From NCBI RefSeq assembly GCF_013019105.1, contig NZ_BLTE01000001.1, positions 124,001 to 188,000 on the forward strand: DNA of 64,000 nt, given 5' to 3'. The notes below the pieces were generated by a model that worked only from the letters and a program-made list of their open reading frames with translations, was not told the DNA's origin and made no database searches. Position numbers and translations under genes: made by a program. Below, piece by piece: positions 16,681-29,701 of the stretch (position 1 is its first letter; the number at the start of each line of letters is the position of its first letter). Source of the DNA: Fundidesulfovibrio magnetotacticus. GTDB lineage: Bacteria > Desulfobacterota > Desulfovibrionia > Desulfovibrionales > Desulfovibrionaceae.

Positions 16681-17736
16681 ATGAGCAACCTGAAAGTTTT
16701 GAACGTCGGAATCGACCTGGGGACGTCGCGCAGCGTGATCGCCTGCGACAACGGCGTCAGGACGTTCGTGCCGAGTTACGTGGGCTACCCCAAGGACATG
16801 GTTTCGCGCAAGCTCATCGGCAAGGACGTGGTGTTCGGCCTGGACGCGCTGAAAAACCGGCTGGCCCTGGACGTGCGCAGACCCTTCGAAAAGGGCATGA
16901 TCAAATATTCCAACATGCAGGACGTGAACGCCGCCGAGTTCGAGACCTACAAGAAAGTGGCGCACGACCTGCTGAGCCACCTCATCGACCTCGTGAAGGC
17001 CGAGGAGAACGGCCCCGTGTCCGTGCGGGCGGTGCTCGGCGCGCCCGCGCTGGCAAGCACGCAGAACAAGAAGCTCCTCGTGGAGATCGCGCGCGACATC
17101 GTCGACGACGTGCTCATCGCCTCCGAGCCCTTCGCCGTGGCCTACGGCCTGGGCATCCTGAGCAACGCCCTCATCGTGGACATCGGAGCGGGCACCATCG
17201 ACCTGTGCCGCATGCAGGGCTCCATCCCCACCGAGGACGACCAGATCACCCTCACCCGCGCGGGCGACCACATCGACGAAGTGTTCATGCGCGAGATCAA
17301 GCTGCGCCATCCCGAGGTGGACATCACCCTCAACATGGTCAAGCAGATCAAGGAAAACAACTCCACCATCTCCGACAAGGGCGAGTGCGTGGTGGCCATG
17401 CTGCCCATCAAAGGCAAGCCGACCCCCGTGGACGTGACCGAAGAACTCCTGATCGCCTGCCGCTCCATCGTTCCCGACGTTGTCGAGGCCATCCGTGTGC
17501 TCATCGCCTCCTTCGATCCCGAATTCCAGAGCCTGATGAAGGAGAACGTCATCCTTGCGGGCGGCGGCAGCCAGATCGGCGGCCTGGCTCGCGAAATCGA
17601 GAAGTTCATGCAGGAAAACCTGGGCTACGGGAAGGTCATCAAGGCCGAGGAGCCACTGTTCGCCGGCGCTAACGGCGGTCTCATGCTCTGCAAGGACATG
17701 CCCAACGAATTCTGGGACGAGCTCAAGAACAAGTAG
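16681..17736 (+). CDS. mamK: MamK, actin-like magnetosome filament protein
   Basis: The 351-residue protein is a clear actin/MreB-fold ATPase. Phosphate-1 is GIDLGTSRS (about 10-18), phosphate-2 is VDIGAGTIDL (about 166-175) with its catalytic-site Asp intact, and the adenosine motif is LAGGGSQIGG (about 295-304). GAPALAST and SEPFAVAYG are also typical. MamK polymerises into filaments that align and segregate magnetosome chains. A second, divergent actin-like gene lies 7 kb downstream. The start follows aaggag with normal spacing. Confidence 0.95.
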   Translation: MSNLKVLNVGIDLGTSRSVIACDNGVRTFVPSYVGYPKDMVSRKLIGKDVVFGLDALKNRLALDVRRPFEKGMIKYSNMQDVNAAEFETYKKVAHDLLSHLIDLVKAEENGPVSVRAVLGAPALASTQNKKLLVEIARDIVDDVLIASEPFAVAYGLGILSNALIVDIGAGTIDLCRMQGSIPTEDDQITLTRAGDHIDEVFMREIKLRHPEVDITLNMVKQIKENNSTISDKGECVVAMLPIKGKPTPVDVTEELLIACRSIVPDVVEAIRVLIASFDPEFQSLMKENVILAGGGSQIGGLAREIEKFMQENLGYGKVIKAEEPLFAGANGGLMLCKDMPNEFWDELKNK

Positions 17737-17782
17737 CAACCGGCCCTTCGCGGCCGCCAAAGAGCCTACAAAGGAGAACGAC

Positions 17783-18124
17783 ATGCAGGATTCGACCAAG
17801 TACCACACCCTGGAGCATCTGGGCGATATCGTCGTGGAGAGGATCGAGGCTGCCCTGGAGTGGCTCCAGCGCTCCACCAAAGGCGTCTCCCTGACCTATC
17901 GCATCCATTGCATGGAAAAGGACCGCGAGGCCTCCTACGCGCGCATCGGCAGGCGCACCGTGTCCCTGCGCAAGCGCCAGCCCGCCAATGAACTCTTCAG
18001 CGACGAAGACATGGCGAGCCTCCTGGCCGAATTCGACGAAGTGGACGCCGAGCTCTCCCGCGCCAAGGCCGAGCGTGAGGCCAGGCTCTACCCCAACTAC
18101 GCCGCCCAGGAACAGGCCGTCTAG
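17783..18124 (+). CDS. Small helical protein downstream of mamK
   Basis: ATG 17783 follows aaggag. The 113-residue soluble protein is mainly charged and helical, with a C-terminal heptad-like stretch (FDEVDAELSRAKAEREARL). A central basic segment (RIGRRTVSLRKRQ) may be structured. No family is recognised. Its position between mamK and a series of coiled-coil genes suggests a filament-binding or positioning role. Confidence 0.7.
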   Translation: MQDSTKYHTLEHLGDIVVERIEAALEWLQRSTKGVSLTYRIHCMEKDREASYARIGRRTVSLRKRQPANELFSDEDMASLLAEFDEVDAELSRAKAEREARLYPNYAAQEQAV

Positions 18125-18189
18125 GCGGTTCGCCCACCAGCGGCTGAGCGCGTTGGCGGACCGAGACCCACTGGAGCCCCGAGGACACG

Positions 18190-19116
18190 ATGCCCGATGC
18201 AACGTTGACGAACGGAAAGCTGTTGCTGGCGACCGACAGCAGTGAGCTTCTGGACAGGCTGATCGGCCTTCTGGCCCCCTGCGCCGTGCTGGACACGGCC
18301 CTCGGGGTCCGGGAGGCCGCCGCCCTGGCCGAAAACGAGCGCTACGACGCCGCCGTATGGGCCTTCCCCCCGGGGGACGGGCTCGCGGCGCGCCTGGCGG
18401 CATTGGCCCACGACGGAGGCTCGGGGCAGGACGCGGCCGCGCTCGCGGAGATCCGGCGCATCCTGGAGGCCCACGCGCGCGACATGTTCGGCGCGCCCGC
18501 CCAGCCGGACATCCAGAGCGACGCCGACGACCTCGCCACCCGGATTGGCGCGCTCGTGGAAGAGAAGGTGGGCCAGTCCCTGGAAGCCCTCATCCAGGCC
18601 GAGCAGGAGGCGGAGCGCTTCGAGAAGGGGCTGCGGGAAGCCATCGCCCAGGCCGAAGCGGCCAGACAGGAGACCGAAGCGGAACGCGCGGCGGCCCAGC
18701 GCGCCCGGGCCGAGTCCGAACGGCTGGCACGCGAACTCGAGGCGCAGCGCAAGGCCATGGACGAAGCCGCGGCCGGCAACGAGCAGGCCCAGGCCTCCCT
18801 GCGGGAGGCCCTGCGCGCCAGCCGCTCCGACCTCGATGCCGCGCTGCGCTCGGCCCACGAGCAACAGGCCGGCATCCTGAGCGCTCGCCAGGAGGCCGAG
18901 GAACTGCGCCGCAAGTTCGCCCAGGCCGAAGCGGAGAAGAAAAGCCTGCGTGAAGCGGCGGACACGCTGCGCGCCGAACTGGCCGTGCGAGGCCGCGAGG
19001 CCGAAGCGGCGCTCTCCAGGGCCGTCGGGGAACGGGATGCGCTGCGCAGGCAGCTTTCCGAGGCACAATCGCGCCTGGACGCCCTCCAGGCCCAGTGGGA
19101 ACAAATCGTACGGTAG
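18190..19116 (+). CDS. Coiled-coil protein with a receiver-like N-terminus
   Basis: The start follows gagga at 18181. The first 80 residues have alternating beta/alpha hydrophobicity (KLLLATDSSELLDRLIGLL, then YDAAVWAFPP) like a degenerate response-regulator receiver, but no clear phospho-acceptor Asp is present. From about 115 to 305 the protein is one long Ala/Glu/Arg coiled coil. It ends RLDALQAQWEQIVR, and almost the same C-terminal peptide closes the coiled-coil protein at 27473-28030. No transmembrane helix. It is likely a structural component of the magnetosome chain machinery (mad20-mad30 type). Confidence 0.75.
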   Translation: MPDATLTNGKLLLATDSSELLDRLIGLLAPCAVLDTALGVREAAALAENERYDAAVWAFPPGDGLAARLAALAHDGGSGQDAAALAEIRRILEAHARDMFGAPAQPDIQSDADDLATRIGALVEEKVGQSLEALIQAEQEAERFEKGLREAIAQAEAARQETEAERAAAQRARAESERLARELEAQRKAMDEAAAGNEQAQASLREALRASRSDLDAALRSAHEQQAGILSARQEAEELRRKFAQAEAEKKSLREAADTLRAELAVRGREAEAALSRAVGERDALRRQLSEAQSRLDALQAQWEQIVR

Positions 19117-19125
19117 GACGCGCCC

Positions 19126-20172
19126 GTGAAGCCAGAACAGCCACTCCCCCCGGACGACTCCCTGCGCGAGCGCTGCCAGACGCTGCGCGACGCCCTGTCC
19201 GAACTGCGCTCGACGCTCGAACTGTTGCGCGGCCGCACCGACGGGTTCCGGGAGAAAATCCGCGGGGCGAACCGCGAGCGGGCGGTGGCCAAGCGGGAAA
19301 TCAGCCTCCTGCGAGACGGCATCTTCCAGGTGAGCGCCGTGCTGCGCGGCGTGGAGGCACGCTTCGCGCATCTGAAGCCGCGCCTGGCCGAAGCCACCAG
19401 CGAGCGCGAGGCGCTGCTCGAGAGCCGCGCCTCCCTGGCCGGGCGGCTCAAGGAATTGCGGACGGGCCACGAGGCCGCGCGGGAGCGCCTGGACAGCCTG
19501 CGCGCCCGCATGGATGCCGACGGGGCGGCCGTGGCCCTGCTCGAACCCCAGGTGGCCGCCTGCAAGGCCCGGTTTCCCTCGGGCCTGGACGACGGACAGT
19601 TCCGCTCGGAACGTTTTCTGGAAGAAGCCATGGCCCTGCTCCGGCGTGAGGAGGAGGCACGGCGCGAGATGTCCCTGGCGCTCGAGGAGAACGGCGAAAT
19701 CGCGCGCGCCAAAGAAGACCTCGGCCGCCGCGTCGAGGAGGCCGGGCGGATTGTGGAGCGGGAGTTCGCCTGCAAAACGTTCCTGCAGAGGCGCTCGGAG
19801 TTGAACGCCGTGCACGGCAGGCTGGAAGAAGTCCTGGTCAGGACCGAGTCCTCGGTCGAACAGACATGGGAGAACGCCGCCATGCGCAGGCAGGCCATCC
19901 AGGACATCCGCCGGAGCATCCAGGAATTGCGCGCGGTCGAGCAGGGCAAGTCCCAGGCCGTGGCAGCCTTTCTGGCGCTCAAGGAGGCCACCGACATGGA
20001 GAAGTTCATGCAGGAGAAGGCGCAGGCCGAGGCGGAGGAGGCCCGCGCGGGGCTGGATGCCCTTCTGCGGCATCATGCCGTGCTCCAGCGCCGGCGCATG
20101 CTCTCGCAAAAGATGCTGGCCGCGATCCGGGACGCGTCGGGTCCAGCGCCTGACGCAGCGGAGGCCATGTGA
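19126..20172 (+). CDS. Long coiled-coil protein
   Basis: The start is GTG at 19126, 9 bases after the previous stop. The 348-residue protein is soluble and almost all charged helix, with heptads from about residue 12 to 330 and few breaks. Two cysteines lie mid-chain. No enzymatic motif is visible. The stop overlaps the GTG of the next gene, so translation is coupled. The assignment as a magnetosome cytoskeletal component is by context. Confidence 0.72.
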   Translation: MKPEQPLPPDDSLRERCQTLRDALSELRSTLELLRGRTDGFREKIRGANRERAVAKREISLLRDGIFQVSAVLRGVEARFAHLKPRLAEATSEREALLESRASLAGRLKELRTGHEAARERLDSLRARMDADGAAVALLEPQVAACKARFPSGLDDGQFRSERFLEEAMALLRREEEARREMSLALEENGEIARAKEDLGRRVEEAGRIVEREFACKTFLQRRSELNAVHGRLEEVLVRTESSVEQTWENAAMRRQAIQDIRRSIQELRAVEQGKSQAVAAFLALKEATDMEKFMQEKAQAEAEEARAGLDALLRHHAVLQRRRMLSQKMLAAIRDASGPAPDAAEAM

Positions 20173-21323
20173 AATTTTCCAACGACAGGGTGCTGCGCGT
20201 CCTTGAGGACGTCAAGGCGCGGATGGCCCTGCGCGACGAACGCGCGAAGCTCGCGGCCGAGGCCTGGCAACTTTCCCGGGAAGTGGAATACCTCTCCGAT
20301 CAGGTGGAGGTCCAGCTCGCGGAACACGCGGCCCTGGCGGCCCAGGCCAGGGACATCGACGGCGAGCTGGAGGAACTGCGCGCGGCCGTGCTCCGCCTGC
20401 GCGGGGAACATGCGGCGCTGCCCGGGCACGCCGATGCCCAGGCTCTGGAACAGGGCGTTCGGGAGAAGTACGAGGCCCTGCCCGCCATCGAAAGCGAGAT
20501 CGAGGCGTTGCGCGTCGAAACGGAGGCCATGCGGGGTGAGATCGCCGGGCTGGAGGCGCATGCGCTGGAGACCGACACCCTCCTCCGGGAACTCGAGCCG
20601 CAGGCGGATCGCCTCGCCGCGCGCCGGGAACGCCTCGGCGAGGAAAGGGCTCTGCTGTCCGGCGTGTGCGAGGCCCTCGACTCCTGGATCTCCAGCGCGC
20701 CCCAGGATGGGACGGCCCCCCTCTCCGACAGCTCCGCCTCGGCATTTCTGGAAGAGCTTGCCCGGCGCGCCGACTCCCGGGAGCGGGAGCTCGCCGGACT
20801 GCGTTCCGCCAACCAGGCCCTGACTCTGGAAAAGGAGAAGCTCGCCCGGCAGCTTGAGGCGCTTAAACGCCAGATTACGGGGAGCGCAACGAACCTCGCG
20901 GACCAGAACCTGGATGCCCTGGAGCGGGACGTCGCGACATTGCTCGACAGGAACAAGGAGCTGCGCGAACACCTCCAGGCCGCACGGGTGAGCGAACTCA
21001 AGGAGGCCAAGGAAACCCTGGCCACCGAGGAGGCCGAATTCGCCGCCGCCCAGAAGGACCTGCTCCAGGCCCGCCTGCGCATGGACGACATCGAGGAAGC
21101 CTCGCGCGAGCTCTATGCGCGAGACGACCCCGCCGCCGTGCTCCTCGGCCTGCAGGCCGAGACCCTGGCAATCCAAAGACATCGCCGGGCGACGTCCGGC
21201 GTTGCCGAAGCCATGACGCTCGCCGCGCGGCATGCCGCGCAAACCAACGAAACGCTCGAGGCGCAGATCGAAAGGCTGCGCTCGGCCATAAGCGCCCTCG
21301 GAATCGCCGCCTACGGAGCGTAG
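20169..21323 (+). CDS. Long coiled-coil protein
   Basis: GTG at 20169 overlaps the preceding TGA (GTGA). The 384-residue protein begins MKFSNDRVLRVLEDVKARMA and is a coiled coil to about residue 310, then a globular-looking helical tail (about 315-384, ARDDPAAVLLGLQAETLAIQ). No membrane helix or catalytic motif. It is the third in a run of coiled-coil genes and probably forms a complex with its neighbours. Confidence 0.72.
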   Translation: MKFSNDRVLRVLEDVKARMALRDERAKLAAEAWQLSREVEYLSDQVEVQLAEHAALAAQARDIDGELEELRAAVLRLRGEHAALPGHADAQALEQGVREKYEALPAIESEIEALRVETEAMRGEIAGLEAHALETDTLLRELEPQADRLAARRERLGEERALLSGVCEALDSWISSAPQDGTAPLSDSSASAFLEELARRADSRERELAGLRSANQALTLEKEKLARQLEALKRQITGSATNLADQNLDALERDVATLLDRNKELREHLQAARVSELKEAKETLATEEAEFAAAQKDLLQARLRMDDIEEASRELYARDDPAAVLLGLQAETLAIQRHRRATSGVAEAMTLAARHAAQTNETLEAQIERLRSAISALGIAAYGA

Positions 21324-21401
21324 CGGCAGGCCCAGGCGTGAACACGGACCAGGACGGCCGGCGCGCATTTCGCCCGAGCCATCCCAACCAAGGAGAAGAC
21401 G

Positions 21402-22940
21402 ATGACCTCGACGCAAAGACATGGTGTCCTCGGTGGCGTCGCTTTTGTCTTGAACACCACCGGCAGGGGCGTCGCCAAAGGGCTTGAGGCCGCGACGGGC
21501 CTCTTCGGGTCTTTCGGCAGCGTGTTCGATGGCGCGGCCGGCATGGTGAAGGGTTTCAGCCTGCCCAAGATCTCGCTGCCCGGCTCTGCGGCCGCCGCAG
21601 TTCGCAAGCGCATCAAGGAGTGCGAGGCCGTCATCCAGGAGCGCTACCTGGAAATCGGCAGGCAGAGCGCCAGCGGCGACACCGACGACGCCCAGCGCAA
21701 GGACGCCATCCTCAAGCTGATCGAGGACGTGCGCGAATTCGAGCGCGAAATCAGCCGTCTGCGCGGCGGCCTGGCCGAAATGGACAGGCGCGAGGCCGCC
21801 CAGCCCGCCCCCTGCAAGCGCCCTGCCCGCAAGGCGATGAGCCAGGCCCAGGCCCAGAAGGAACTGGCCCTGGCCATCCGCATGGCCCTGGACGGCGGGT
21901 CCTTCGCGGACAGCTCCGCCAAGGCGATGTTCAAGAAGGTGGCCGAAGATCTGCTGGACGAAGAGCCCGAGGTGCGCATCCTGGCCGCATCGGAACTCGG
22001 CAAGATGGGCGGCCCCGGCAGCGTGGGCGTGCTGGTCGCCGCGGCGCGCCTGGGCGACCCCGACCTCACCATGGAGGCCCTGAACGCCCTGAGCGGCGTG
22101 GACGATCCTGCCGCCCTGGACGTGTTCAAGGATTCCACCACGCACCCCAAATTCGGCGTGCGCCTGATCAGCCTGCGCGGGGTTTACAAGATGGCCCCCG
22201 AGGACGAAGCGGCCCCGGTGCTCATCGGATCGCTCTCCGACGAACACCCCGAGGTGCGCCGCACCGTGGCCGCCTACCTGGGCTGGAAGGACTTCCCCGG
22301 CGCGGTGACCGCCCTGCTCCAGTGCCTGCGCGACGAAGACGCCAACGTGCGCAAGAGCGTGGTGGGGGCCTTGGCCGCCCTGCGCGACGAGACCGCCGTG
22401 CCCGGCCTCATCCAGACCCTGGCCGACGAGAGCCTGGAGATTCGCGAAAAGGCTCTGGAAGCCATCCGGGGAATCACCGGCAAGTCCGTGCAGTTCGACC
22501 TCTCCGCCACCGGCGCGGAGCAGGACCGCGCCATCGCCTCCTTGCTGGAGAAATGGGCCGGCCAGTCCATCGCGTCCGAAGAAGCCGCCCCCCCCGCCCC
22601 GCCCGTGGCGGAAGCGGCCCCCGCTAGTCCTGAGGCGGCGTCCGAACCCGTCCAGGAGGTCCCGGCGGCCGATCCCATCCAGGCCGAAACCGTCTCCGAA
22701 GCCGTCGCCCCTGCTCAGGAAGCCCGCCCCGAACCCGTCGCCCAGCAGGAATTCGGCCTCCCCGAGCCCGTCGAATGGGACGGCGCGGCCCCGGGCGGCG
22801 CAGTTTCCGTCGATCCGGACACCATCAAGGACCTCAACAAGGCCGACCTCATGGCCCTGTGCGAGAAGCTGGGCATCGAGTGCGATCCCAAGCTGAACAA
22901 GGCCGAAATCCGGAAGCTGCTCCTCGGGAACGCGGGATGA
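21402..22940 (+). CDS. HEAT-repeat protein with a SAP-like C-terminal domain
   Basis: ATG 21402 follows aaggag. The 512-residue protein has a Gly/Ala/Phe-rich N-terminus (about 8-60) that could touch membrane, a short coiled coil (about 65-130) and four to five PBS/HEAT-like repeats (about 175-365; repeated units such as EPEVRILAASELGKMG, HPEVRRTVAAYLG and DANVRKSVVGALAALRD). An acidic Pro/Ala/Glu linker follows (about 380-455). The last 35 residues (DLNKADLMALCEKLGIECDP then NKAEIRKLLL) look like a SAP/HeH-type helical domain, usually a nucleic-acid or protein-binding module. It is probably an adaptor between filaments and vesicles. Confidence 0.82.
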   Translation: MTSTQRHGVLGGVAFVLNTTGRGVAKGLEAATGLFGSFGSVFDGAAGMVKGFSLPKISLPGSAAAAVRKRIKECEAVIQERYLEIGRQSASGDTDDAQRKDAILKLIEDVREFEREISRLRGGLAEMDRREAAQPAPCKRPARKAMSQAQAQKELALAIRMALDGGSFADSSAKAMFKKVAEDLLDEEPEVRILAASELGKMGGPGSVGVLVAAARLGDPDLTMEALNALSGVDDPAALDVFKDSTTHPKFGVRLISLRGVYKMAPEDEAAPVLIGSLSDEHPEVRRTVAAYLGWKDFPGAVTALLQCLRDEDANVRKSVVGALAALRDETAVPGLIQTLADESLEIREKALEAIRGITGKSVQFDLSATGAEQDRAIASLLEKWAGQSIASEEAAPPAPPVAEAAPASPEAASEPVQEVPAADPIQAETVSEAVAPAQEARPEPVAQQEFGLPEPVEWDGAAPGGAVSVDPDTIKDLNKADLMALCEKLGIECDPKLNKAEIRKLLLGNAG

Positions 22941-23518
22941 ACGCCCAGGAGATCAACGGCCCCGACGACCTTCCACTTTCCGGCGATGCCGGGGGCTCGA
23001 CAGCCCCCGGCCCGTCCGGGGAGTCGGGCCAACCGGACCCGGCTGTCCTGGCGGCCGAGCTCAAGGCCGTGCGCCTGCTCCTGGAAGAGCGCAACCGCGA
23101 ACTCTCAGCCCTGATGGCCAAGGAGGACGCCCTGCGCCGCGAACTTCGGGAGAAACGCTCCGCCGAGCACGCGGCCATGGAGGAACTCGCGTTCCTGACC
23201 CGCGAGCAGGCGCGCCAGGACAACGCCTGGCAAGCCGCCTCCGCCGAGCTCGAGGACAACGTGCTGGAGATCGAAAAAGGGGCTCGCCGCCTGGAGTTCG
23301 CTCGAGGGGAACTGGAAGCGCTGGACCGTCAGCTGGAATCCCGGATCGGCGACCTGCCGGAGCTTGTCAGCTGCAAGAACGACCTGGAAGACAGGATCAG
23401 CCAGGCCACGGCGCAGTTCGGCGACATCATGGAGCGACTGAGCAGCGCCGCCAAGGGCTTCAAACTCTCCTACTACCAGAGACGAAGCCAACTGCGGGGG
23501 AAACATGCCGCCTATTGA
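22937..23518 (+). CDS. Coiled-coil protein
   Basis: ATG 22937 overlaps the preceding stop (ATGA). The 193-residue protein has a flexible Gly/Pro/Ser-rich N-terminus (1-35), then continuous heptads (about 38-165), and ends with a basic stretch (KLSYYQRRSQLRGKHAAY). No known domain. It overlaps the next gene by 14 bases in another frame. Confidence 0.7.
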   Translation: MNAQEINGPDDLPLSGDAGGSTAPGPSGESGQPDPAVLAAELKAVRLLLEERNRELSALMAKEDALRRELREKRSAEHAAMEELAFLTREQARQDNAWQAASAELEDNVLEIEKGARRLEFARGELEALDRQLESRIGDLPELVSCKNDLEDRISQATAQFGDIMERLSSAAKGFKLSYYQRRSQLRGKHAAY

Positions 23519-24209
23519 CACCAGCATCAAGGAACACCTGAACGCCCTGCTCGACAGGGGCAAGGGAGCGGGCGCAGCCAAGGCCCCGGCCGCCTCCCCG
23601 GTCTCCACGGCGCTGCAGCGCGACGGCGCCTCCGTCGATTTCGAGAATGTGATCGCGGAGATGCTGGGCGCCATTCAGGACATGGAAACCCAGCTCTCCT
23701 CAGTCCTTGAAATCAACACGCTGCTCGAGACCGACCTGAACCAGGCCAAGGAGCGCATCCGCGAACTGCGACAGGAACGCGAGAAACTCCTCTCCACCAT
23801 CGCGCGCCTTGAGGAGGAGATGCCCTCCAAGCGCGAGTTGCAGATGGTCATCGACCAGTTGATCGAGGAGCGCAGCGACGCCGAAATCACCATCCGCGAC
23901 CTGCGACGCCGCGACGAGCAGGTGGGGGCGGTTCTCAAGGGCCTGCAGGACGCACAACGCGCCCTGGAAGACTCCCGCGCGCAGTTGCAGAGCGAACTCG
24001 CCGCCGTCGAAGTCCGCCTCGAAGCGGCCCTCAAGGATTGCGGCAAGCTCGAAACCAGGAACCGGGCGCTGGAAGAAAAGAACGCCGCCAACGCCGCCGC
24101 CATCAAGGAGCTGGAAGCAGACCTGCGCATGGCCCTGGACGAAAGATTCCGCCTTTCCATCGAACTCGACGAAACACGCCGGGCCCTGGCCGCCATGCAG
24201 GGGCGCTAG
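23505..24209 (+). CDS. Coiled-coil protein
   Basis: The 234-residue protein has a short disordered N-terminus and then uninterrupted coiled coil (about 45-230), with regular Leu/Ile at heptad positions (INTLLETDLNQAKERIRELR). The start overlaps the preceding gene by 14 bases, so translational coupling is likely. No membrane segment or enzymatic motif. Confidence 0.7.
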   Translation: MPPIDTSIKEHLNALLDRGKGAGAAKAPAASPVSTALQRDGASVDFENVIAEMLGAIQDMETQLSSVLEINTLLETDLNQAKERIRELRQEREKLLSTIARLEEEMPSKRELQMVIDQLIEERSDAEITIRDLRRRDEQVGAVLKGLQDAQRALEDSRAQLQSELAAVEVRLEAALKDCGKLETRNRALEEKNAANAAAIKELEADLRMALDERFRLSIELDETRRALAAMQGR

Positions 24210-24248
24210 CCCGGCCCGGCGAAAGCACAAGGAAACGAGGTCAACCCC

Positions 24249-24755
24249 ATGTCCGGCGAGCACGAGCCCAGCCTGAACGGCCGCACGGAACGGTTTCTCC
24301 CCGAGGCCGCCACGCTCCTGCGCGAGATCGAACGCTCCCGCGAGGTGCTGGCCGACCTCGACGCCGCAGCCAGCGCCTGCGCGGACAGGATCGCCGCGCT
24401 GCGTGACGAATCCCGCCGCGTCGACCGCAATCTGGGCCTGCTCGGCGAGCGCCGGAACGCCCTGATGGAAGCCATCGGCGAGGCCCGCCGCCGCGCGTGC
24501 GACGCCCGGGCCGAAGCGCAGGCCAGCTCCGCGCTCAAGGCGGCCATTCTCTCCGACCTGCGGGAGTTGCAGGCCGAGCGGGAGCGGGTTGTCGCCAAGC
24601 TCGCGTCCATCAAGGACGGCCTCAAGCGCATCGAGTCTGAAAAAACCGGCATCATGCCCGTGGGCAAGCGGCAATCCGAACTGCTGGGCAAGGCCCACTC
24701 CCTGATCAAGGAAGCCCACAACCGCATGGAGCTTTCCATCATCCTGAACAAGTAA
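24249..24755 (+). CDS. Short coiled-coil protein preceding the second actin gene
   Basis: ATG 24249 follows gaggtc. The 168-residue protein is helical and charged throughout, with heptads at about 18-135 and a Lys-rich end. Its place immediately before the Mad28-type actin gene makes it a candidate binding partner of that filament. No family is recognised. Confidence 0.7.
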   Translation: MSGEHEPSLNGRTERFLPEAATLLREIERSREVLADLDAAASACADRIAALRDESRRVDRNLGLLGERRNALMEAIGEARRRACDARAEAQASSALKAAILSDLRELQAERERVVAKLASIKDGLKRIESEKTGIMPVGKRQSELLGKAHSLIKEAHNRMELSIILNK

Positions 24756-24759
24756 TCCC

Positions 24760-24780
24760 GGAGCGGCCCAGCGCCGCTCC
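24760..24780 (+). other. Intercistronic hairpin before the second actin gene
   Basis: GGAGCGGC and GCCGCTCC form a perfect 8-bp stem with a 5-base loop, 5 bases after the stop of the coiled-coil gene and 20 bases before the actin start. There is no T-tract. It may protect RNA ends or tune expression of the two halves of the operon. Confidence 0.4.
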
Positions 24781-24800
24781 CTGCCCAGGAGGATCCGTCC

Positions 24801-25991
24801 ATGGCCGACAACAACGACTCCGAGAACATCTTCGAGCGCAAGGACCGCCTTGCCGACGCCGAATCGACCGTGGGTGCCCCGGTGAATTGGGGGTCGTCCG
24901 TTCCTGGCGACCAGAGCCTCGAAGCGGCCATCGCCGCCTCGCAGAAGCCCTCGGTGAACCAGCACATCGACGGCATCGACCAGGCCGAGCGCCCCAGCGG
25001 CCCCGTGGGCCTCGACGTGGGCACCAGCCGCATCGTGGCCGCGCAGAACATGCGCAACCACATCCACATCACCGAGCAGGTGAACGCCTTCTTCACCATC
25101 CCCATCTCGAAATTTTCCAGGCGCATCCTGCAAAACCACGAGATCATGTTCTTCGAGCGCGGCGACCAGTTCTGCATCGTGGGCTCGTCGGCCGACAACT
25201 TCGCCAACACCTTCAACACCAGCTCCCGAAGGCCCATCCAGGGCGGCCTCCTGAGCCCGGCCGAGAAGGACGGCATCAGCGTCGTCCAGGCCGTGGTCAA
25301 CACCCTCATCCAGAAGCCCAAACGCTTCGGCGAAACCATCTGCTACGGCATCCCCGGCGAACCGGTGGACGGGCAGGCGGCGGCAGGGAAAGTGACCTAC
25401 CACGAGCAGGTCATCAAGATGTTCCTGCAAAACCTCGGCTACACGCCCATCTCCATCAACGAAGGCATGGCCACCGTGCTCTCCGAACTCGGGCAGGACG
25501 ACTACACCGGCATCGGCATCAGCATGGGCGGCGGCATGTGCAACGTGTGCCTCTCCTACCTGTCTTTCCCGGTGATCACATTCAGCATCCAGGCCGCTGG
25601 CGACTACATCGACACCATGACCGGCCAGGCCGTGGGCGAGCCCGCCACCAAGATCAAGTTCATCAAGGAAGAGGAACTCGACCTCTCCCGCGAAGCGGGC
25701 GACATGGTGCAGACCGCCCTGCACATCTACTACGACGCCGTCATCCACAAGCTCCTGCACAGCCTGCAGCGCGTGCTGGCCGCGTCCGACAAGCTGCCCA
25801 AGATCGCCAAGCCCATTCCCATCGTGCTCTCGGGCGGCACGGCCATGCCCAAGGGCTGCGTGAACAAGTTCCGCAAGGTGCTCGACACCGTTTCGCTGCC
25901 CATCGCCGTCTCCGACGTGCGCCTGGCGGCGGACCCCCTGCACACCACCGCGCGCGGCGCGCTCATCATGGCCATGAGCGAGTCCGCCTAG
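24801..25991 (+). CDS. mad28: Mad28-type second actin-like protein
   Basis: The 396-residue protein has a disordered N-terminal extension of about 68 residues and then an actin fold. Phosphate-1 is GLDVGTSRI (70-78), the connect segment is INEGMATVL, and the adenosine motif is VLSGGTAMPKG. The phosphate-2 loop reads GISMGGGMCNV, where actin-like ATPases normally have DxGGGT; the Asp is replaced by Ser and the Thr by Met. It is clearly different from the MamK at 16681. Deltaproteobacterial islands are known to carry such a second actin, named Mad28, and the name is given on that basis. It may form its own filament or cap MamK. Confidence 0.8.
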   Translation: MADNNDSENIFERKDRLADAESTVGAPVNWGSSVPGDQSLEAAIAASQKPSVNQHIDGIDQAERPSGPVGLDVGTSRIVAAQNMRNHIHITEQVNAFFTIPISKFSRRILQNHEIMFFERGDQFCIVGSSADNFANTFNTSSRRPIQGGLLSPAEKDGISVVQAVVNTLIQKPKRFGETICYGIPGEPVDGQAAAGKVTYHEQVIKMFLQNLGYTPISINEGMATVLSELGQDDYTGIGISMGGGMCNVCLSYLSFPVITFSIQAAGDYIDTMTGQAVGEPATKIKFIKEEELDLSREAGDMVQTALHIYYDAVIHKLLHSLQRVLAASDKLPKIAKPIPIVLSGGTAMPKGCVNKFRKVLDTVSLPIAVSDVRLAADPLHTTARGALIMAMSESA

Positions 25992-26003
25992 GACGCGAAA
26001 CCC

Positions 26004-26033
26004 GGCCGCGCCTTCACGCCCGAAGGCGCGGCC
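26004..26033 (+). terminator. Strong hairpin after the second actin gene
   Basis: GGCCGCGCCTTC and GAAGGCGCGGCC form a perfect 12-bp stem with loop ACGCCC, 12 bases after the actin stop. The bases that follow (CTTCCCG) are not T-rich, so it is more likely a partial terminator or RNA-stabilising hairpin than a complete stop. It could lower expression of the following genes relative to the actin. Confidence 0.5.
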
Positions 26034-26053
26034 CTTCCCGAACCAACCACGCA

Positions 26054-26557
26054 ATGGACACAGGCTCCCCGATGCCCAGGCCGACCCATGTGGCCGTGTT
26101 TTCCCCTGACTTCGTGCGCGGCAACGTTCTCCTGCGACGCATCGCCAGGGACAACGCGGATGCGGCCCTGCACGACGCCCTGACCCCGCTGCGCAAGTCC
26201 CTGCGGGATGCCCGGCCCCGTGTCGTGGTTTTCGACGCCTCCGCCGCCTCGCCGGGCGAGCTGCGCGCCCTGCCCGAACTCTGCCATGAGCTTCCTCCCG
26301 GCTGCGAAGTCGTGGTGCTCGGCGCGTTGCCCGAAGGCTTCGGCCTCCCGGAAATGCGCGGGGTTGCCGCCGTCCTTCCGGGGGCGCTCGACCCGGAAGC
26401 CGTCGCCCTGGCGGTAAGCCACGTCTGCGCGCGCCCGGCGCCGACCGCGCGGCCCCCGGAAGCTGCGGAGCCTCCCTCCACCGGCACGGAACAACTGCGC
26501 GACGCGCCCGTTCGAGAAATCGAAGCCGACCTGCTGGCCTTCCTCAAACTGGATTAA
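26054..26557 (+). CDS. Receiver-like domain protein without phospho-acceptor
   Basis: Start is ATG 26054 or ATG 26072; neither has a strong ribosome site. The protein of 161-167 residues has beta/alpha alternation typical of CheY-like or septum-site proteins (HVAVFSPDFVRGNVLLRRIA, then RVVVFDASAA, then CEVVVLGAL). Asp in VVVFDAS is at the position of the acceptor but the surrounding acidic pocket (DD near the N-terminus) is missing. It lies 4 bases before a MinD-type ATPase gene, as pseudo-receivers often do next to MinD/CpaE ATPases (in CpaE they are fused). A targeting role for the ATPase is the best guess. Confidence 0.6.
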   Translation: MDTGSPMPRPTHVAVFSPDFVRGNVLLRRIARDNADAALHDALTPLRKSLRDARPRVVVFDASAASPGELRALPELCHELPPGCEVVVLGALPEGFGLPEMRGVAAVLPGALDPEAVALAVSHVCARPAPTARPPEAAEPPSTGTEQLRDAPVREIEADLLAFLKLD

Positions 26558-26561
26558 CGCC

Positions 26562-27476
26562 GTGACAGCACCCACACCAGCGATCATTGCCGTCATCGGA
26601 CCCAAAGGCGGGGTCGGCAAGAGCACCATTTCGGCCAATCTGGCCATCTGCCTGGCGCGCACGGGGGCGCGCGTCATCGCCGTGGACCTCGACCTCGGTT
26701 CTGCCAATCTCAACGTCCTGTTCGGGCTCAGGAACGTGCCCTGCACGCTGGACGATTTCCTGATGGGCAAGATTCCCGAACTGGATCAGGCCGTCCTTCC
26801 CACCGGCATCGAGGGGCTTTCGCTCATTTCCGGAGGCAACGTCCCCGGCATCGCCAGCCTTCCCTACCAGCGCAAGATCAAGCTCATGCGCCACCTGCGC
26901 AAACTCCCGTGCGACTATCTCCTGCTGGACCTCGCCGCGGGCGTCACCAACAACGTGGTCGATTTCGCCCTCATGGCCGGGAAAAGCCTCCTCGTCACCA
27001 CGCCCGACGTGCCCTCGCTCATGAGCCTCTACAGCTTCCTGAAAACCATGGTGTTCCGAAGAATGGCGCTGTACCTCAAGCAAGCCGGGGCCACGGAGAT
27101 CCTCGCGCTGCTTGAAATGGCCAAGGACGCCGAAAGCCACCCGGAGCTCAAAACCTTCGAGGCCCTGCTCGAACGCGCCCGTGCGGTGGACCCGCAGAAT
27201 GTCGAGAAGATGCGCCGCGTCAACGCGCGTTTCGCGCCCGTCACGCTGGTCAACAGGGCCTCGGGCGAGGCCGGGATCAAGGCCGGGGCCACCATCAACA
27301 AGCTGATGGAAAAATTTCTGAGCATCACCGTGCACGACATCATGACCGTGCGTGAAGACCCCGCCGTGACCAGGGCGGCCATGAAACTCAGGCCCGTGCT
27401 GATCGAGGAGCCCGGCTGCCCCTTCGGCAAGGACCTGCAAAGGGCTGCCGCGTTCATCGTGAACAAGGGGCTGTGA
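26562..27476 (+). CDS. MinD/ParA-type positioning ATPase
   Basis: The start is GTG at 26562. The 304-residue protein has a deviant Walker A (GPKGGVGKST, about 13-22), the switch AVDLDLGSANL (about 45-55) and a Walker B/switch II with YLLLDLAAGV (about 120-129), like MinD and FlhG. The second half is alpha-helical. Such ATPases position flagella, chromosomes, carboxysomes or chemoreceptors through membrane or DNA gradients. Inside a magnetosome operon it could set the position or partition of the chain. The stop overlaps the start of the next coiled-coil gene (GTGA), suggesting a direct partner. Confidence 0.85.
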   Translation: MTAPTPAIIAVIGPKGGVGKSTISANLAICLARTGARVIAVDLDLGSANLNVLFGLRNVPCTLDDFLMGKIPELDQAVLPTGIEGLSLISGGNVPGIASLPYQRKIKLMRHLRKLPCDYLLLDLAAGVTNNVVDFALMAGKSLLVTTPDVPSLMSLYSFLKTMVFRRMALYLKQAGATEILALLEMAKDAESHPELKTFEALLERARAVDPQNVEKMRRVNARFAPVTLVNRASGEAGIKAGATINKLMEKFLSITVHDIMTVREDPAVTRAAMKLRPVLIEEPGCPFGKDLQRAAAFIVNKGL

Positions 27477-28030
27477 CTGTTAAAAGCCTGAACCAGCATG
27501 CGCGAGGGGCCATGGAAGAAGACCACGCCACCGCACCATCGGAACATGAGTCGACACGTCAACCCGAGACGGCCTTGATTTCCGGCATCGTGTCCCGTCT
27601 TGCAGGCCAGAACCAGAGGCTGGCCCTGTTGATGGAACAGTTCGCCGTTGCGGAAGCCCAACGCCGGATGGTCTTTGAAGAGCGCATCTTCGAGCTGCGC
27701 TCCGTGGCCAGGCAGGCCCTCGATGAAAAGGATCGGCTCGAGCACGCCTCGGCCCGGTCCAAGGCCGAGCTGGCAGCCATGAGCGCCCAGGCCGCGCGCT
27801 TCGCCGACCGCGCCTCCCAATGCCAGGAGCGACTTGATGCGGCCCAGCGCGAGGTGGAAGTGCTCAAGCGGGAGCTCAACTCCTGCCGCGACAGGCTTGC
27901 CGATTCGGAGCGCGCGCGCCACGAGGCGCAGGACGCCCTGCGCTCCCAGCGGGAGGTCAACCAGGAGCTCAAACGCGACCTGGACCGCCTCCAGCGCCAA
28001 TGGCAGCAGATCATCGACCGGGACAGATAA
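27473..28030 (+). CDS. Coiled-coil partner of the MinD-type ATPase
   Basis: GTG at 27473 overlaps the ATPase stop; an internal ATG at 27512 is an alternative. The 185-residue protein has a polar N-terminus and a coiled coil (about 50-180). Its end, LDRLQRQWQQIIDRDR, repeats the C-terminal peptide of the coiled-coil protein at 18190-19116 (LDALQAQWEQIVR). A shared terminal peptide suggests that both dock to the same partner, for example the ATPase or a filament. Confidence 0.72.
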   Translation: MTVKSLNQHARGAMEEDHATAPSEHESTRQPETALISGIVSRLAGQNQRLALLMEQFAVAEAQRRMVFEERIFELRSVARQALDEKDRLEHASARSKAELAAMSAQAARFADRASQCQERLDAAQREVEVLKRELNSCRDRLADSERARHEAQDALRSQREVNQELKRDLDRLQRQWQQIIDRDR

Positions 28031-28054
28031 CCCCACGCCCGTACGGGAGGCGAC

Positions 28055-29701
28055 ATGTCGGCAACGGCGCCCAACGAACACGACGGCCCCGGGAATTTCT
28101 CCATATCCGGTCTTTCACGGCTCGCCGAGTCTCAGGAGCGGGTCCTTTCCCTGCTGGAGGCCACGGCTTCGCGGCTGGCCATGGTGGAGTTCGCCCCGGC
28201 CGCACCGGCCACGGACGAAGAGAAGGAACGGCTCCGCCAGGAGACGGAAACACTTGCCGCCGCCCTGGAGCAGGAGCGTCTGAGCGCCGCGCGGGACAAA
28301 GACGAGGCGCGGGAGCTGCTGCGCCAGGCCGAGCAGGCGCTGGAGCAGGCTGCCCTGGCGACGCAAGAGGAACGACGCCTGGCCGCTGAGCTGGCCCGGG
28401 AGCTCGAAGCGGCGCGCTCCATGCTCGAAGAGGCTCGCGCCGACGCGCTGCGGGCGCAGGGAGATCTGGATGCCCTGCGCGGGGAAATGAAACGCCTGGA
28501 AGACGATTTGTCACGGTCCGCGCCGATTCCCGAGAGCGAGGAGGCCAAGGCAGCTGAAAAGGCCCTGCTCGAAGAGTGCTCGCGCCTGGAATCCTCCCTT
28601 GAAGAGGAGCGGCGACGCGGTGAGCAGGCGCAGGCCCTGATAAGCACGCTGGCCGCCGAACGCGACGAGGCGCGGGAACGGCTCGCGCTGGCCGAGGAAC
28701 GCGCCCGCTCCGCTGAGACGCGCGTCCAGGAGTTTGGACGGCAGACACAGCAGCTGGAGGCGCGGGGACAAGAGCTGGAGGCGCTGCGGCTGGAACTGGA
28801 AGCGAGGCTGGCCGAAGCGTTGGCCGCTGGAGAACGGGCGACGCCTGTCTCCTCCAACGCGGACCAGGAGCAAACGTCTCACCGCACGGACGCCGCAGAC
28901 GCTTCCGGCGTGCGCTTCTGGAAAAGCTGCTGTCTGGGCCTGATGCTCGTGCTCGTGGTGGCTCTTTCCGCCCTCTGGGGGGACAGTGACCGTCAGAAAC
29001 CACCGTCGGCGGTCCAGCGTTCCGCGCCCGGCGAAGCCGCGCGGTCGCCTGGCGCGGACGACAAGGAACGCCCCGCGCCGCCCCGGCAGCACGCCATCGG
29101 GGAGGCCGTGCGGCCGGAACAGCCCGGCGAGCCCCGGGCCAAAGCGGAGCAGCAGACGTCGCCCCCTGCCCCTGCCGCGCCCGTTGCGTCCGGCGCGCCC
29201 GCTCCCGCGCCGCCGACGGTCCCGGCTCCTCCCGGGAAGGAAATCCTCTCCGCCGCCGCACCCGAGACCGCGCCGACAACCGGCCCTCCTCCTGCAGCTG
29301 CCCCTGCCCTTTTGCCCCAAGCGACGGCCGCAAAGCCCGAGGCCGCTGGGCCAGACCAGTTCAGCCTGCCCTTCCCTCCCGCCGCCGACGTTCTGAGCCC
29401 GGCCCAGAACAAGGACATCGCGGAACTGGTCAAAAAGGTCCTGGCCAAGCCACGCAAGGTCGTGCTCGTGCTGGGCTATGCCGACGCCCAGCCGCTGCGT
29501 GGAGTGCTCGCCAAGCGCTACCCGGACAACGTGGCCCTGGCCCAGGCCAGGGCTCTGGCCGTGGCCCGGGCCCTGGTGGCGGGCGGCGTTCCCGAGAAGC
29601 TGGTGACGGCCTGCGGAGTGGGCGCCGTACGCCCGTTGTCCTCCGGCCAGCCCGCGGCGGGCGGCCTGCTGGCCCGTCGGGCCGACGTGCTGGCCTGGTG
29701 A
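28055..29701 (+). CDS. Membrane-spanning coiled coil with OmpA-like peptidoglycan-binding domain
   Basis: The 548-residue protein has a long cytoplasmic coiled coil (about 20-275), one membrane helix (about 288-308), a Pro/Ala-rich periplasmic linker (about 310-440) and a C-terminal OmpA/MotB-like domain (about 445-548). The OmpA signature is recognisable: GYADAQPL holds the conserved Asp and NVALAQARALAVARALVAGG holds the conserved Arg of the peptidoglycan-binding motif. The layout would tie a cytoplasmic filament bundle to the cell wall. As the last gene of the actin/coiled-coil operon it is the obvious anchor for the magnetosome chain. The role is inferred; the domain order is seen. Confidence 0.85.
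   Translation: MSATAPNEHDGPGNFSISGLSRLAESQERVLSLLEATASRLAMVEFAPAAPATDEEKERLRQETETLAAALEQERLSAARDKDEARELLRQAEQALEQAALATQEERRLAAELARELEAARSMLEEARADALRAQGDLDALRGEMKRLEDDLSRSAPIPESEEAKAAEKALLEECSRLESSLEEERRRGEQAQALISTLAAERDEARERLALAEERARSAETRVQEFGRQTQQLEARGQELEALRLELEARLAEALAAGERATPVSSNADQEQTSHRTDAADASGVRFWKSCCLGLMLVLVVALSALWGDSDRQKPPSAVQRSAPGEAARSPGADDKERPAPPRQHAIGEAVRPEQPGEPRAKAEQQTSPPAPAAPVASGAPAPAPPTVPAPPGKEILSAAAPETAPTTGPPPAAAPALLPQATAAKPEAAGPDQFSLPFPPAADVLSPAQNKDIAELVKKVLAKPRKVVLVLGYADAQPLRGVLAKRYPDNVALAQARALAVARALVAGGVPEKLVTACGVGAVRPLSSGQPAAGGLLARRADVLAW

Follow-up and report, generated by a model that had tools for sequence, protein, structure and literature searches.

The genome of Fundidesulfovibrio magnetotacticus (contig NZ_BLTE01000001.1, order Desulfovibrionales) contains, within a 64,000-nucleotide stretch at positions 124,001 to 188,000 (hereafter, the window), a run of 14 genes on the + strand at 16681-29701 that begins with the gene for the magnetosome actin MamK and ends with a gene for an OmpA-domain protein. 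This locus raises the question of whether two actins, a set of coiled-coil proteins, a MinD/ParA-type ATPase and a potential cell wall anchor are organised as one machine, as a sequence-only reading of the window had proposed. We conclude that most of the run belongs to a known set of genes that align magnetic crystals and that the cluster itself is known; what we did not find in the literature searched is a conserved pseudo-receiver, a tail-less FleN-like ATPase (Mad29) tied to an actin, and a recurring protein composed of a coiled coil, a transmembrane (TM) helix and an OmpA domain. That Mad29 and the pseudo-receiver belong to the chain system is well supported, and that the anchor genes also do so is less well supported. 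Overall, we see an even chance that the run encodes the machinery by which a deep-branching magnetotactic bacterium organises its chain, to which a switch and a wall anchor are attached.

How much of the run is already known? The published sources cited here were available in part, and statements about them refer to those parts. The magnetosome cluster of FSS-1 was reported to span 29.486 kb from mamI-1 to mad29 (PMC7951924). A MamI-like open reading frame starts at C1:121991 and 29,486 bases from there lead to C1:151476, i.e. window position 27476, where the ATPase gene ends; therefore, the window comes from FSS-1 or a twin of this strain, and the ATPase gene already bears the name mad29. The cluster as published does not include the final two genes of the run. 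The locus numbering in the FSS-1 paper implies one gene more between mad28 and mad29 than our gene calls. mamK, mad10, mad23, mad25, mad26 and mad28 are present in the order of the mad-type chain cluster, the FSS-1 cluster contains the same genes up to mad29, and RS-1 (PMC12748827) has the same order from mamK through mad28 and the pseudo-receiver gene to mad29. Names exist for seven of the 14 genes, and six of these seven (mamK, mad10, mad23, mad25, mad26 and mad28) were deleted in RS-1 in 2025, as was mad20, in work that targeted actins and coiled-coil proteins (PMC12748827). In RS-1, MamK functions in the spacing of subchains, Mad28 holds the chain at the inner curve, and Mad10, Mad20, Mad23, Mad25 and Mad26 gather crystals into subchains (PMC12748827); when placed in E. 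coli, Mad28 tracks curvature, and it also binds to liposomes (PMC12713370). With the cluster up to mad29 published and six genes deleted, the distinct positioning system announced by the sequence-only reading is not a discovery as such. In the available parts of the FSS-1 and RS-1 papers, the pseudo-receiver gene is unnamed, the role of mad29 is not probed and the OmpA protein is not described (PMC7951924, PMC12748827), and a hypothetical gene next to mad28 and mad29 is mentioned elsewhere (PMC9376291). The terms 'mad29' and 'OmpA' are absent from the main texts of PMC12748827 and PMC12713370, the available parts of the magnetosome literature mentioning mad29 contain no mechanism for Mad29, and a whole-word literature search, with supplements outside its reach, gave no paper linking magnetosome, OmpA and mad and no volactin paper among the mad28 papers listed.

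Does the ATPase gene belong with the actin gene? We used a four-row Mad29 alignment in a pattern-seeded scan of GTDB species genomes, which gave 116 relatives, and kept 80 loci. Among these 80 loci, 37 are at 35-62% identity to Mad29, and the rest are at most 28% identical over long alignments or are short matches; linkage was judged on the 37 close loci, with L113-L155 outside the count (L113 and L114 were used in the tree described below). The 37 loci hold the same-genome pairs L080/L082 and L090/L096 and contain G124 and G205 again (as L076 and L106). Close mad29 is linked to mad28 and/or the pseudo-receiver gene in 29 of them; in 25, mad28 lies just upstream of mad29 (twice as fragments) with the pseudo-receiver gene between the two. 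In other linked loci, mad28 is downstream (L079), both partners are on the opposite strand a few kb off (L083), or the pseudo-receiver gene is upstream of mad29 (L085, L100). Genomes with a close mad29 locus include Desulfamplus magnetovallimortis, Ca. Magnetobacterium casense, Ca. Magnetominusculus xianensis and a Nitrospinota genome, and comparison with other islands revealed that RS-1, G205 and G124 keep the mamK-to-mad29 order with Mad29 being 57-62% identical. The unlinked loci are eight (L081, L088-L090, L095, L108-L110), and the genomes of L089 and L090 have mamK. Strict exclusivity of mad29 to magnetotactic bacteria is rejected because the genomes of the other six unlinked loci (L081, L088, L095, L108-L110) and of the linked loci L077 and L080, both metagenome-assembled genomes (MAGs), gave no mamK match.

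Among 297 genomes of the order, mad28 exceeds the family cut-off in four (nine at E 0.001), and exactly these four carry a close mad29 (567-583 bits with a profile built from the four best-scoring genomes; 166 bits in a fifth genome). The four represent four genera, in which five congeners have neither gene. A single-sequence search for mad29 in 24 genomes gave 57-61% identity over the full length in three and at most 38% over a comparable stretch elsewhere. The linkage and the co-occurrence both support the proposal of the sequence-only reading that the ATPase belongs with the actin, and for mad29 they do not fit a chance neighbour found mostly in non-magnetotactic relatives. We note that the MAG B25_G16 (L080, L082) has two fragmentary mad28 copies beside intact pseudo-receiver and mad29 genes and no mamK match.

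What kind of ATPase is Mad29? It has a MinD/ParA-type domain, and its nucleotide motifs are invariant in all 20 rows of an alignment (A5) selected by hand from the window and the 37 loci. The structural model (predicted local distance difference test score, pLDDT, 89) matches FleN best (Z 31.5), followed by FlhG (29.6) and archaeal MinD (27.7). Mad29 has the same fold and nucleotide motifs as these three; relative to FleN, a block of ~55-60 residues is extra, and there is no C-terminal tail beyond the core. Specifically, 243 of 304 residues align with FleN up to its last residue, and the residues lacking a FleN counterpart are probably helices between 150 and 222. E. coli MinD is about 270 residues long, and the Mad29 model ends where MinD residue 250 aligns, leaving no C-terminal membrane tail, which argues against a MinD-type membrane gradient. 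FlhG bears an N-terminal activator motif; this motif was not found in Mad29, in which the first strand begins at residue 7. Because Mad29 also scores far below the curated MinD models (78.5 versus 212.9 bits and 100.9 versus 201.75 bits), the MinD gradient system that had been read from the sequence is not upheld. In a phylogenetic tree, linked Mad29 and five of the eight unlinked relatives form one clade (support 97/95), and L108-L110 branch next. In L109 and L110, a Mad29-like ATPase gene lies directly 3' of a gene for an NtrC-type regulator that has a receiver domain, and this arrangement may be an older context of the ATPase family.

For the protein encoded between mad28 and mad29, Pfam gave no significant match. 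Its model (pLDDT 86) has a receiver fold and a separate tail helix, and best matches in VIA-align are Spo0F and other receivers (Z 15.8). In alignment A4 (28 rows), S17, R22 and D61 are each kept in 27 rows; the acid pair is replaced (S17), and Lys at column 110 is found in no row; L160 and L164 in the tail are kept in all 28, and the linker before the tail is variable. On this modelling, the protein is a receiver fold that lacks the catalytic set and retains Asp61. Ten of the 37 loci are not in A4, i.e. L085, in which the gene is apparently cut at the contig start, and L079, L081, L088-L090, L095 and L108-L110, in which none was found next to mad29. The RS-1 and G634 proteins, which are also outside A4, carry the tail, and in RS-1 further residues follow it. 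No pseudo-receiver gene was found beside mad28 in G301.

Our working hypothesis is that the pseudo-receiver and Mad29 would be the two halves of an ATP-dependent switch that places the Mad28 scaffold. On binding ATP, Mad29 would dimerise, as do FleN, FlhG and MinD; the pseudo-receiver would tether or gate Mad29, which has no membrane tail of its own; and the conserved tail helix of the pseudo-receiver would dock on a scaffold protein. This docking partner may be Mad28 or a different scaffold protein, given that the tail is retained in G634, which has no close mad29.

The main rival is that Mad29 is a FleN-like regulator that, with the pseudo-receiver, restrains a sigma-54 activator and sets magnetosome gene expression with no direct role in positioning. 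The best structural match of Mad29, FleN, is the antiactivator of the sigma-54 activator FleQ, and a gene for a PAS-sigma-54 activator lies 8 kb downstream in the window and 2 kb after mad29 in G205 (69% identical). An activator is also within the flank in five of the eight unlinked loci (L081, L088, L090, L109, L110) and directly upstream of the ATPase gene in L109 and L110. However, a sigma-54-domain match was found in only three of the 29 linked loci (L082, L084, L106) and not in the fetched RS-1 stretch, and the constant neighbours of linked mad29 are the actin and pseudo-receiver genes. We consider the regulatory role rather unlikely.

Is the OmpA protein, whose gene lies outside the published cluster, part of the same system? 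In the window, it starts with a predicted cytoplasmic coiled coil, followed by a single membrane helix at about residue 291, a Pro-rich linker and the OmpA domain. Proteins of this architecture are found in RS-1 (G172; 1002 residues, about C2:4613789-4616797, after kup), in G205 (684 residues), in L112 (G691; about 530 residues, directly after mad29 but for one small intervening gene, as in the window) and in G695 (524 residues, on the cluster contig beside a mamE-like gene); in G124, a copy on a separate contig is cut by the contig end. G172 is RS-1, as two published stop mutations, at mamQ codon 65 and mad2 codon 37, are reproduced at the base positions given for them, and the RS-1 copy lies inside the magnetosome island (4607747-4689778). 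The coiled-coil regions of all five complete proteins beat 100 shuffles. In the available parts of the RS-1 paper, the coiled-coil magnetosome proteins are all without a predicted membrane helix (PMC12748827), and therefore the RS-1 OmpA protein was seemingly not counted there. A conserved Asp and a conserved Arg of the OmpA domain are invariant in all six aligned domains. In peptidoglycan-binding OmpA domains, these two residues have a role in the binding. In the 297 genomes, with at most 15 candidates scored per genome, the four mad28 genomes, which are all rows of the OmpA profile, scored 150-173 bits with it, and the others at most 101 among the matches listed. MotB-like and other TM-OmpA proteins also have one membrane helix and an OmpA domain; here, a long coiled coil precedes the helix, whereas in the three next-best places of the order the topology is another, with the coiled coil after the helix or missing. 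In Nitrospirota, the six-domain OmpA profile found no anchor in the fetched mad29 flanks. A long OmpA reading frame in L170 was rejected as an anchor because it is another kind of protein, and L168 and L169 hold other OmpA proteins.

We suggest that the products of the last two genes would fasten the scaffold to the cell wall: the coiled coil in the cytoplasm would join the Mad coiled-coil network, the helix would cross the inner membrane and the OmpA domain would grip peptidoglycan, such that the magnetic torque of the chain would pass to the cell body. A second rival, which we consider quite unlikely, is that the system consists of the known mad genes alone, with the last two genes being chance neighbours and the OmpA protein serving the envelope generally: OmpA domains are widespread (at E 1e-14, the profile is matched in 240 of the 297 genomes), the published cluster ends at mad29 and 36 of 37 mad29 flanks are without an anchor, but the rare order of coiled coil, TM helix and OmpA domain recurs in or beside five clusters at differing positions, again after mad29 in L112 and after kup in the RS-1 island, and there are short, weak N-terminal matches (RS-1/G205, E 0.08-0.1; window/G205, E 0.03). 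Thus, the inclusion of the OmpA gene in the system by the sequence-only reading stands insofar as the gene recurs in the RS-1 island and on three other cluster contigs, and falls short as an anchor next to mad29 in general.

Taken together, the functions given here to Mad29, to the pseudo-receiver and to the OmpA protein are inferred, and it is plausible that ATPase, actin, coiled coils and anchor would act as one machine. In its most specific form, a composite organelle-positioning machine would have an ATPase switch with a separate pseudo-receiver that places Mad28, an actin of the volactin type, and the scaffold bolted to peptidoglycan by a torque-carrying coiled coil-TM-OmpA protein; we put this forward tentatively, as a possibility that is doubtful in its full form. 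Several observations weigh against the switch and the anchor. mad29-like genes also occur in some genomes without a mamK match, and G634 has mamK, mad28 and the pseudo-receiver gene and no close mad29. The four best-scoring genomes are among the rows of profiles A1 (mad29) and A6 (OmpA), and the lead of these genomes is inflated by this. The anchor is in one of 37 mad29 loci (L112) within the fetched flanks and, thus, not universal; the small partner genes before the OmpA gene are not alignable across species, and the small partner is above shuffles only in the window and not in RS-1, G205 or L112. Moreover, Mad28 binds membrane itself and, therefore, no anchor is required for membrane binding. 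Finally, the literature search gave no experimental work on Mad29, on the pseudo-receiver or on the OmpA protein.

How does the proposed arrangement compare with known positioning systems? CpaE/TadZ, which functions in pilus placement, likewise combines a pseudo-receiver with a MinD-type ATPase, whereas receiver and ATPase are two genes in the window and in all 25 full-order loci. We rejected a split CpaE/TadZ as the family assignment because the ATPase is nearer FleN and MinD, there is no CpaE in 50 VIA-align rows for the pseudo-receiver, and the profile matches of the pseudo-receiver are ordinary receivers (best 60 of 83). CpaE/TadZ is also absent among 50 VIA-align rows for Mad29, which excludes nothing, and in Foldseek CpaE pseudo-receivers make up nine of the top 50 rows for the pseudo-receiver. 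By analogy, CpaE/TadZ is retained solely as a system that may work alike. In carboxysome positioning, McdA is also a ParA/MinD-type ATPase associated with an organelle (6nop versus Mad29, Z 23.7). A 2025 review, in its available parts, handles ATPase-based and actin-based positioning as separate strategies (PMC13052382); in contrast to McdA systems, both gene types are together in one run here. If the reading of the run as one machine is true, actin-type and ParA/MinD-type positioning would meet in one organelle system. The locus bears on how deep-branching magnetotactic bacteria fasten the chain to turn the cell, place it and share it at division, and RS-1, which has genetics, offers two sets of candidates, namely the pseudo-receiver with Mad29, and the OmpA gene that follows kup.

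The second actin is, by sequence, Mad28 and a member of the Pfam Volactin family, such that a magnetosome actin is assigned to the volactin family; with 23.9 bits in the MamK model (cut-off 400), it is outside MamK. A sequence search gave no solved structure related to Mad28. Mad28 exceeds the cut-off of the same Pfam family as the Haloferax actin volactin (PMC10869688, available in part), a likeness of family membership only, and differs from it in being bacterial and in a magnetosome cluster. Mad28-like actins that are 54-60% identical were seen in L041-L045 (G548, G485, G528, G586, G437), and weaker ones (37-48%) in L047, L049 and L051. In the fetched flanks of these loci, no other window query, including the magnetosome genes queried, was matched except for MinD-like matches in L049, and Mad28 may predate magnetosomes or extend beyond them. 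L171 (G485), L172 (G437), G528 and G586 have paired MamK-like genes with 39-44% identity to the window MamK, far from the Mad28-like gene; this is possibly a two-actin system outside magnetotaxis.

All parts that the sequence-only reading had named (MamK, second actin, HEAT-repeat protein, pseudo-receiver, ATPase, OmpA protein) are present in the run (Table 1). Coiled coils were scored with a crude custom heptad measure against 100 shuffles per protein; seven proteins beat all shuffles (cc131, cc133, cc135, Mad25, Mad26, cc141 and the OmpA protein) and Mad10 and cc132 do not, such that the about nine coiled coils claimed earlier are reduced to seven. Intergenic gaps are at most 78 bases, and the overlapping start and stop codons, described as many, are real at four of the 13 junctions. 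The run was also described as a complete operon. Upstream on the + strand are a gene that corresponds to mad11 in its order and one of DtxR/FeoA type, and because same-strand genes continue there, a complete operon is not established; scans of the run for promoters (0 versus a shuffle mean of 0.6) and terminators (12 versus 12.9) did not beat shuffles. Downstream lie convergent EcsC-, TauE- and Kup-type genes.

Table 1 Features of the gene run, in window positions (cc labels are those of this analysis).
Feature	Position	Strand	Basis
mamK, magnetosome actin	16681..17736	+	NCBIfam MamK 465.6 bits, cut-off 400; 72-74% identity in three other clusters
mad10	17783..18124	+	Name by published gene order
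cc131, coiled coil	18190..19116	+	Heptad measure above 100 shuffles
cc132, helix-rich	19126..20172	+	Heptad measure not above shuffles
cc133, coiled coil	20169..21323	+	Heptad measure
mad23, HEAT-repeat protein	21402..22940	+	Pfam HEAT_2 91.1 bits; 42-44% identity in three other clusters
cc135, coiled coil	22937..23518	+	Heptad measure
mad25, coiled coil	23505..24209	+	Published gene order; heptad measure
mad26, coiled coil	24249..24755	+	Published gene order; heptad measure
mad28, second actin	24801..25991	+	Pfam Volactin 265.6 bits, cut-off 35; 69-73% identity in three other clusters
Hairpin, perfect 12-bp, without T run	26004..26033	+	Between mad28 and pseudo-receiver gene
Pseudo-receiver gene, conserved C-terminal tail	26054..26557	+	Alignment A4 (28 rows); model pLDDT 86, receiver fold
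mad29, FleN/FlhG/MinD-type ATPase without membrane tail	26562..27476	+	Published cluster ends here; fold model
cc141, coiled coil, first of proposed anchor pair	27473..28030	+	Heptad measure
Coiled coil-membrane helix-OmpA protein, proposed wall anchor	28055..29701	+	OmpA domain E 2.4e-14

Two minor observations concern the surroundings of mad28. A small STAS (anti-sigma antagonist-like) gene, absent from the window, lies near mad28 or the anchor gene in 10 of the 48 sources covered, the query's own included (L018, L048, L076, L078, L084, L086, L087, L100, L112, L165). The hairpin in the gap between mad28 and the pseudo-receiver gene might set the dosage of actin to ATPase.

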